A stretch of 42,188 nt of DNA, taken from an uncultured Gammaproteobacteria bacterium (GTDB lineage Bacteria; Pseudomonadota; Gammaproteobacteria; Poriferisulfidales; GCA-002705445). The translations under genes were made by a program, and so were the position numbers. The first letter of the stretch is position 1, and each line of letters starts with the position of its first letter. Shown here piece after piece: positions 27,713 to 29,759 of this stretch. The notes beneath the pieces are model-generated. The model was not told the DNA's origin. It did not search any database and worked only from the letters and a program-made list of their open reading frames with translations. Location of the stretch: contig CAJXAV010000007.1 of assembly GCA_913050095.1 (NCBI GenBank), positions 1 through 42,188 on the forward strand, written 5' to 3'.

Positions 27713-28609
27713 ATGTTTAATTCTAAGATATATAAAGCCTATTTAGATTCTTCAAAACCAAAAGTTGTTTTATTAATGATATTTACCTCTTTTATTGGAA
27801 TGTTATTAGCTGACCCACTGAATATTAACTTAAAAGTATTATTTTTTGGAAATTTAGGTATAGCTTTGATGTCATTATCTGCGGGATCAATTAATCAATT
27901 ACTTGATCAGAGAATAGACAAAATTATGTCCCGTACTAAAGGTAGACCATTGGCATCAGGTTTACTTAAAACTAAAAATGTTATTGTATACGCAATGACA
28001 ATAGCGTTAGTTGGATTTTATATTCTGTATTTTCATATAAACGAACTTACTGCTTGGCTTACACTTGGATCTCTTGTAGGTTATGCATTTATTTATACGA
28101 TGTATCTAAAAAGAAGTACACCGCAAAATATCGTAATTGGTGGCGCAGCTGGAGCAACTCCTCCGTTACTTGGTTGGACTGCAATGACAGGCCAAATTGA
28201 TCTTATAGCAGTAATTTTATTTTTAATAATTTTTACATGGACGCCACCACATTTTTGGGCTTTAGCACTTTATAGGAAAGAAGATTATTATGCGGCGAAA
28301 ATTCCAATGTTACCTGTAACACATGGGGAACAATATACTAGGGTTCATATAACTTTATATACTTTGATGCTTACTATAGTAAGCTTCTTGCCATTTATTA
28401 TTAAGTTTTCAAGCTTTTTTTATCTGGCTGGCGCTGTAGTTTTAAATTTAGTATTTCTATATTATGTTTTTAGAATGCAGCTTGCTAAGAATAATGTTCT
28501 AGCTAACAAAATATTTAATTACTCAATAGTTTATTTATCAGCTATATTTGGTTTCTTGATCGCTGATAGATACTTAGTATTAATAATGAATATTAAAGAT
28601 TTTCTTTAA
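27713..28609 (+). CDS. ctaB: Protoheme IX farnesyltransferase (heme O synthase)
   Basis: UbiA-type prenyltransferase that makes heme O, the precursor of heme A. 298 residues. The first Asp-rich motif reads NQLLDQRIDKIMSRTKGRPL (residues about 62-81), the second GYAFIYTMYLKRSTPQNIVIG; GAAGATPPLLGW and TWTPPHFWALALYRKEDY are strong family signatures. Overlaps the 3' end of rpoH by 17 bases. Confidence 0.97.
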   Translation: MFNSKIYKAYLDSSKPKVVLLMIFTSFIGMLLADPLNINLKVLFFGNLGIALMSLSAGSINQLLDQRIDKIMSRTKGRPLASGLLKTKNVIVYAMTIALVGFYILYFHINELTAWLTLGSLVGYAFIYTMYLKRSTPQNIVIGGAAGATPPLLGWTAMTGQIDLIAVILFLIIFTWTPPHFWALALYRKEDYYAAKIPMLPVTHGEQYTRVHITLYTLMLTIVSFLPFIIKFSSFFYLAGAVVLNLVFLYYVFRMQLAKNNVLANKIFNYSIVYLSAIFGFLIADRYLVLIMNIKDFL

Positions 28610-29429
28610 GTTTTGACATTGTTTCACTTTCAATTTGCCTAATTCTTTCTCGAGAAATATCATATTTTTTGGACAAATCTTCCAATGTTAATTTGTTTTC
28701 AGATAACCATCTGCTTTTCATTATATCTCTGCTTCTTTCATCAAGATTATTAATCGCTTTATAAAGTTTATCATTTAAAGCTGATTTTTCATTTTTTTCA
28801 ATAATTTGATCTGGCTCTAATTCGTTACTTTTTAAGTATAATGTGGGAGATGCGTTCTCATCATCTGTATTTTCAATTGCTAAGTCATGATTATGCAATC
28901 TTTTTTCCATCTCAAAAACATCTCTAACTGGAACACCTAGATCATCGGCAATAGATGAAGCTTCTTTATGTGAGAGACTTGATAAAGAATTTTTTTTTGA
29001 TCTTAAGTTGAAAAAAAGTTTTCTTTGAGTTTTTGTAGTTGCAACTTTGACAATTTTCCAATTTTTTATAACAAACTCATGTATTTCTGACTTAATCCAA
29101 AACACAGCAAATGTAATTAGCTTTAAATTCTTATTTGGGTCATATTTTTTTACAGCCTTCATTAGACCAATATTACCTTCTTGTATTAAATCACTTAGAT
29201 TTAATCCGTATCCTGAGTAGCTTCTAGCAATATAAACAACGTATCTTAAATTATGCATGATTAGCTTTTTTGCTGATTCGAGGTCGTTTGTATTTTGAAG
29301 TTTTATGGCCAAGGCAACTTCTTCTTCTGTGGAAAGCGCAGGAATAGACATTACATGATTAATGTAAGTATCTATACTTCCTGAGGTCGAAGGAAGTGTG
29401 TTGTAATTATATTCTAAAGTTTTATTCAT
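28593..29429 (-). CDS. rpoH: RNA polymerase sigma-32 (heat shock sigma factor)
   Basis: 278 residues. Region 2 has LIMHNLRYVVYIARSYSGYG, DLIQEGNIGLMKAVKKYDP and FAVFWIKSEIHEF; the RpoH box, TQRKLFFNLRSKKNSL, marks sigma-32 rather than other sigma factors. Region 4 ends with LTLEDLSKKYDISRERIRQIE, which binds the -35 box. It is transcribed from a promoter that carries a perfect CIRCE element (see 29451-29487), which makes it a target of HrcA. It overlaps ctaB at its 3' end, and is not followed or preceded by ftsY/E/X as in Pseudomonas. Confidence 0.97.
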   Translation of the reverse strand: MNKTLEYNYNTLPSTSGSIDTYINHVMSIPALSTEEEVALAIKLQNTNDLESAKKLIMHNLRYVVYIARSYSGYGLNLSDLIQEGNIGLMKAVKKYDPNKNLKLITFAVFWIKSEIHEFVIKNWKIVKVATTKTQRKLFFNLRSKKNSLSSLSHKEASSIADDLGVPVRDVFEMEKRLHNHDLAIENTDDENASPTLYLKSNELEPDQIIEKNEKSALNDKLYKAINNLDERSRDIMKSRWLSENKLTLEDLSKKYDISRERIRQIESETMSKLKENL

Positions 29430-29450: not shown

Positions 29451-29477
29451 TTAGCACTCATTATACAAGAGTGCTAA
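29451..29477 (-). promoter_or_regulatory. CIRCE element (HrcA operator) in the rpoH promoter
   Basis: TTAGCACTC, nine bases, GAGTGCTAA: a perfect match to the CIRCE consensus. It encloses the -10 box of the rpoH promoter in its nine-base spacer. HrcA bound here would block RNA polymerase. CIRCE is best known before groESL and dnaK operons, so a copy before rpoH would put sigma-32 under HrcA control. Confidence 0.95.
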
Positions 29478-29487
29478 ATTTTATCAA
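29460..29487 (-). promoter_or_regulatory. Sigma-70-type promoter of rpoH
   Basis: On the minus strand TTGATA (plus 29482-29487) and TATAAT (plus 29460-29465) are 16 bases apart. Transcription should start near 29453, giving a leader of about 24 bases. The -10 box is inside the CIRCE spacer. Confidence 0.75.
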
Positions 29488-29759
29488 TCAGACAGAAAAT
29501 ATATAATATAATCAATTACTTATATATAATTAAATGATTATATACACCTTAAAGTTATTGCATATTAGATATTAACTATAATTATTATATTAATTATATT
29601 TTTTTTTAACACACCTCTACAAAAAGTATATTTGTAAAATTAAATATTTTGACAAAAAAAGTTTATTTTTTAAAAATATAGAAACTATATAAATAATATA
29701 TAGATAATTTTATGTTATATTTAGCTCATAAATTTTAAATATTTTTTTAGGGCAAAGTC
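29478..29759. other. AT-rich divergent region between rpoH and the M16 pair
   Basis: About 280 bases beyond the CIRCE element, almost all A and T. TTGACA at 29649-29654 with TAAAAA 16 bases later is the best promoter guess for the protease gene. I see no open frame, RNA gene or strong hairpin. Confidence 0.4.

Follow-up and report, generated by a model that had tools for sequence, protein, structure and literature searches.

A CIRCE operator enclosing the predicted -10 hexamer of rpoH in a gammaproteobacterial family that lacks rpoE

The heat-shock sigma factor gene rpoH of an uncultured gammaproteobacterium is preceded by a perfect CIRCE element, the operator of the repressor HrcA, with the predicted sigma-70 -10 hexamer lying in the spacer. 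HrcA very likely represses rpoH through this arrangement; the link between CIRCE and rpoH is widespread, and the organism's family appears to have rebuilt the rpoH promoter after the loss of rpoE. The window, a stretch of 42,188 nucleotides of genomic DNA, was analysed together with the whole assembly, its relatives and a sample of the class. Descriptions of how rpoH is controlled on heat shock in Gammaproteobacteria are usually based on E. coli, a species that possesses neither hrcA nor CIRCE and regulates rpoH through the sigma-E-dependent P3 promoter, a thermometer and the RpoH box. The distinctive part of the present case is the promoter arrangement and not the CIRCE-rpoH link itself; the preliminary description of this DNA mentions neither the loss of the sigma-E input nor the relocation of the promoter.

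Operator and predicted promoter of rpoH in the window

The features of the region are as follows.

28593..29429, minus strand: rpoH, heat-shock sigma factor sigma-32, 278 aa; TIGR02392 and NF005143 above cut-off
29001..29027, minus strand: RpoH box QRKLFFNLR, residues 135-143, from the translation
29451..29477, no strand: CIRCE operator, predicted HrcA site, TTAGCACTC-N9-GAGTGCTAA, exact match
29451..29455, minus strand: expected transcription start, about 7 nt past the -10 in the downstream CIRCE arm, placed from promoter spacing
29460..29465, minus strand: predicted rpoH -10 hexamer TATAAT within the CIRCE spacer, from promoter matching; unchanged in 11/11 family sequences
29482..29487, minus strand: predicted rpoH -35 hexamer TTGATA, from promoter matching; TTG unchanged at fixed spacing in 11/11 family sequences
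29510..29522, minus strand: TAAGTAATTGATT, a further conserved block 28 bp upstream of the -35; TTG.TT unchanged in 11/11 family sequences

The gene product scores 343.5 bits against TIGR02392 (cut-off 323.1) and 358.7 bits against NF005143, and both the equivalog score and the presence of the RpoH box identify it as RpoH (sigma-32). The operator lies 21 nt from the downstream rpoH and is an exact 9-9-9 inverted repeat, TTAGCACTC-N9-GAGTGCTAA. The window has no other CIRCE match at up to three mismatches, and 0.01 were expected from shuffles; a chance origin is ruled out by the shuffles and a reversed-pattern control. On the minus strand, TTGATA-16-TATAAT is the top promoter match of the region (11/12), and its TATAAT falls entirely inside the nine-base spacer, so that the operator overlaps the predicted -10 of a heat-shock gene. 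The stretch from operator through -35 (29451-29487) had been described as a perfect CIRCE enclosing the rpoH -10 box, and this description is borne out in full.

Since the -10 is covered by the operator, the natural reading is that HrcA represses rpoH. The sigma-70 promoter would drive rpoH, and with the -10 in the spacer, RNA polymerase could not bind there while an HrcA dimer sits on both arms. Unfolded proteins or heat would draw GroEL off HrcA, which would then lose activity and release groESL and rpoH together; HrcA would thereby raise the supply of sigma-32 in step with the chaperonin. GroE has been reported to increase HrcA binding in other bacteria (PMC6032397). We infer HrcA binding, repression, the heat signal and the identities of the promoters from sequence.

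The assembly (1.08 Mb, 96% complete) encodes a single hrcA (TIGR00331, 313.7 bits; cut-off 197.2), followed in gene order by grpE and then dnaK, and this match dismisses the objection that the genome might have no hrcA. A whole-genome search at up to three mismatches returned two CIRCE sites only, before rpoH and before groESL, with zero matches for the reversed pattern. The groES site, TTAGCAGTC-N9-GAGTGCTAA, is located directly 3' of a TTGACT-16-TAAAAT promoter assigned by eye, which is the usual placing. No CIRCE was found before hrcA at up to three mismatches in this genome, suggesting that HrcA would not be autoregulated, and no sigma-32 promoters before groES, hrcA or rpoH rose above the background of the AT-rich genome. 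Given that the operator, TATAAT and the TTG of the -35 are kept, that hrcA is present, and that there are just two CIRCE sites, HrcA very probably represses rpoH in this organism, as had been proposed from the window.

The further proposal that such repression would replace the post-transcriptional control known from E. coli finds no support. The RpoH box is the region tied to chaperone and protease control of sigma-32 in E. coli; it is intact here, and so this control probably persists, with HrcA adding a transcriptional layer instead of taking its place. Folding of the predicted rpoH leader and early coding region, as a test for an E. coli-type thermometer that sequesters the start region in a stable 5' structure, gave z = -1.37, a value that fits the presence of such an element as well as its absence.

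Conservation within the family

Of the 20 genomes that represent the order in the collection, 12 belong to the family of the window, a family that we take to be marine from the names of its isolates. The gene rpoH is present in 10/12 of these genomes and is preceded by the operator in all ten, and hrcA is kept throughout the family; the suggestion that the genome be checked for hrcA and rpoH orthologues for the site thus led to a positive result on both counts. The arms are perfect in nine of the ten genomes, the exception (G006) having one arm mismatch. In an alignment of 11 rpoH upstream sequences from the 10 genomes, one of which (G011) contributes two copies, most of the sequence has drifted or is unalignable except for the operator, TATAAT, the -35 TTG and the second block. 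Candidate roles for the block at 29510-29522 are the -35 of a distal promoter, an UP element or another site. In G001 and G005 the block TAAGTAATTGATT forms part of a palindrome, ATTGTTTTTAAACAAT. The two rpoH copies of G011, on contigs C10 and C14, carry the same operator; contamination of this bin is 6%, and two strains are therefore likely to lie behind the two copies.

In two genomes of one genus, G007 (98% complete) and G009 (74% complete), rpoH was not found. The sole RpoH match in each is 29% identical and lies in a frame of roughly 615 residues that also occurs in G000 and G001 and is taken to be RpoD. Both keep hrcA and a single CIRCE, which resembles the groES one, and the M16-peptidase neighbour was not found in either at the cut-off used, in a search without a positive control. 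Loss of the heat-shock sigma factor in this genus is possible.

CIRCE and rpoH promoters across Gammaproteobacteria

The rpoH upstream regions of relatives were combined with an even draw from the class (at least 90% complete, mostly one genome per family), and hrcA was scored in the same genomes that gave these regions. CIRCE, at up to three mismatches, precedes rpoH in 118/127 hrcA-positive versus 6/42 hrcA-negative genomes (Fisher p = 4e-22; this p-value and the one below treat genomes as independent, ignoring kinship, several genomes are incomplete, and an apparent absence of hrcA or rpoE in a draft genome can be an assembly gap). The six hrcA-negative exceptions include a 62% complete genome (G024), one whose congener possesses hrcA (G035), and two members of one genus with a degraded site (G086 and G201). 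In the sister families f2 and f3, neither hrcA nor CIRCE was found at up to two mismatches, and the operator is thus kept and lost along with hrcA. These counts indicate that the CIRCE-rpoH link is common to hrcA-bearing Gammaproteobacteria, and the class-wide sample rules out a site confined to one genome or lineage. The arrangement is widespread in the class and probably old, and the preliminary description was too narrow in assigning the chaining of the two circuits to one lineage, also in view of a prediction made for Geobacter sulfurreducens in 2004 (PMC545781). To judge by this comparison, many members of the class repress rpoH through HrcA, and those without hrcA do not. Tandem pairs of CIRCE or CIRCE-like elements, 30-42 bp apart, were seen before rpoH at four loci: L050 (G029), L159 (G069), L194 (G163) and L170 (G145).

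Two further features emerge when 114 sites outside the family are aligned on the operator, with position 0 as its first T. One is GGAACTT at -16 to -10 combined with T, A/C and A at 9 to 11, positions 7-11 reading mostly TCTAA or TCTCA. The canonical sigma-E promoter consists of GGAACTT and TCAAA (PMC4890791), and the pairing of GGAACTT with TC-T-A/C-A apparently fits such a promoter, with a 16-bp spacer and a -10 that starts in the left CIRCE arm. At up to two mismatches, GGAACTT occurs at offset -16 in 67 sites, at -17 in 10 and at -15 in 7, and hardly elsewhere. All 67 sites with GGAACTT at -16 are among the 103 rpoE-positive ones, versus 0/11 rpoE-negative sites (p = 2.7e-5, genomes again taken as independent); the motif is missing from exactly -16 in 36/103 rpoE-positive sites, some of which carry it shifted by one base or at another place. 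The other feature is an AAT after the right arm, which creates TGCTAAAAT, an extended -10; T at position 29 with A at 27 or 28 is found in 101/114 sites. TGCTAAAAT is apparently the extended -10 of a sigma-70 promoter, for which TTAGCA or TTGGCA in the left arm would be the -35, at 18 bp.

In G088 (L162) and G202 (L167), two genomes of one genus without hrcA, the symmetry of CIRCE has decayed, with GAACTTT, TTGGCACTC and TGCTAAAAT still present and a sigma-70 spacer of 17 bp, not 18. It is reasonably probable that, in most hrcA-bearing Gammaproteobacteria, one HrcA operator doubles as a sigma-E -10 and as a sigma-70 -35 and extended -10, which would bring three stress circuits together in about 46 bp; that the promoter bases can persist in lineages that lose HrcA while the symmetry disappears; and that, in the family of the window, sigma-E was lost, the operator was retained and the promoter shifted into the spacer.

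The class-wide element and that of the window share the same operator, the same place before rpoH and the tie to hrcA. Most class members, however, have the sigma-E-like -35/-10 over the left arm and the extended sigma-70-like -10 over the right, whereas the family of the window has neither and lacks rpoE. With the curated model, rpoE is absent from 12/12 family genomes, one of which (G007) has a single distant match of 44 bits. None of the 11 family rpoH upstream sequences contains a sigma-E promoter of the E. coli P3 type (GGAACTT-N16-TCnnA, together with rpoE), and GGAACTT and the trailing AAT are both missing from all of them. TATAAT at operator positions 12-17, conversely, is found in 11/11 family sites versus 1/114 elsewhere, at up to one mismatch. 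The family thus appears to have rebuilt its rpoH promoter inside the operator after losing a second stress sigma factor. In the simplest history, sigma-E would have been lost, both older promoters would have decayed, and a sigma-70 promoter about 10-12 bp upstream would have taken over while the operator stayed constant; we infer this order of rpoE loss and promoter takeover from comparison of present-day sequences. The family, with a streamlined marine genome, would be an example of a promoter rebuilt around a fixed operator once a sigma factor disappears.

Alternative readings and related arrangements

Repression by occlusion of the -10 was weighed against three other readings of the conserved site. 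Instead of covering the -10, HrcA could act mainly as a roadblock to transcripts arriving from a distal promoter at 29510-29522. The distal TTG.TT is unchanged in the family, and some members have, by eye, a -10-like hexamer about 17 bp further downstream; these hexamers are inconsistent, however, whereas the TTG and TATAAT around CIRCE are unchanged and match at 11/12 in the window, and the roadblock is therefore unlikely. It is more improbable still that the operator is a relic, its bases kept as a promoter while HrcA no longer acts at rpoH. The hrcA-less pair G088 and G202, where promoter halves are retained as symmetry decays, demonstrates how such a relic would look, but the promoter hexamers of the family use only spacer and upstream bases. 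The arms, which have no evident promoter role, are nonetheless perfect in all rpoH-bearing family genomes except for the single mismatch in G006, and hrcA accompanies them in each.

The least probable reading, to which we give hardly any weight, is that the repeat acts as an RNA stem in the rpoH leader and affects stability or translation. Fully transcribed CIRCE-like repeats are generally known to be able to form stems in 5' leaders, but with transcription expected to begin within the downstream arm, rpoH mRNA would carry only part of one arm and not the whole repeat. Direct repression by HrcA at the -10 thus remains the preferred reading.

E. coli resembles the window in its rpoH orthologue and intact RpoH box. 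With its sigma-E input to rpoH, E. coli also resembles most relatives of the window, whereas the family of the window has hrcA and CIRCE and no rpoE. Among the reports consulted on CIRCE, rpoH and HrcA, the only one found to place a CIRCE before rpoH was the computed prediction from 2004 for Geobacter sulfurreducens (PMC545781, Table 8); a 2003 paper on beta-, gamma- and epsilonproteobacteria (Permina and Gelfand) may well report CIRCE at rpoH. According to the available portion of PMC545781, G. sulfurreducens shares with the window a perfect TTAGCACTC-N9-GAGTGCTAA just before rpoH (there at -51), hrcA, and a CIRCE at groESL, but it belongs to a distant lineage (deltaproteobacteria in that paper) and its hrcA-grpE-dnaK-dnaJ also has CIRCE. 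That portion reports no TATAAT-in-spacer arrangement for G. sulfurreducens.

A search of 84,980 genomes for an exact CIRCE carrying TATAAT at this place in the spacer gave 69 stretches. A downstream protein could be matched in 30 of these: rpoH in 10, and hrcA, groES, groEL or dnaK in the rest. Sites of this kind before hrcA, groES or dnaK, mostly in Firmicutes, have the same -10-like placing as the window, but their targets are chaperone operons or hrcA and not rpoH. The placing of TATAAT in the spacer is therefore not unique, whereas its use at rpoH is rare. Nine of the ten rpoH cases come from the family of the window and one from a deltaproteobacterium. In the latter, L223 (Deltaproteobacteria bacterium RBG_16_54_18), rpoH is preceded by a perfect CIRCE whose spacer has TATAAT where the family has it, an arrangement that perhaps arose separately in this distant lineage.
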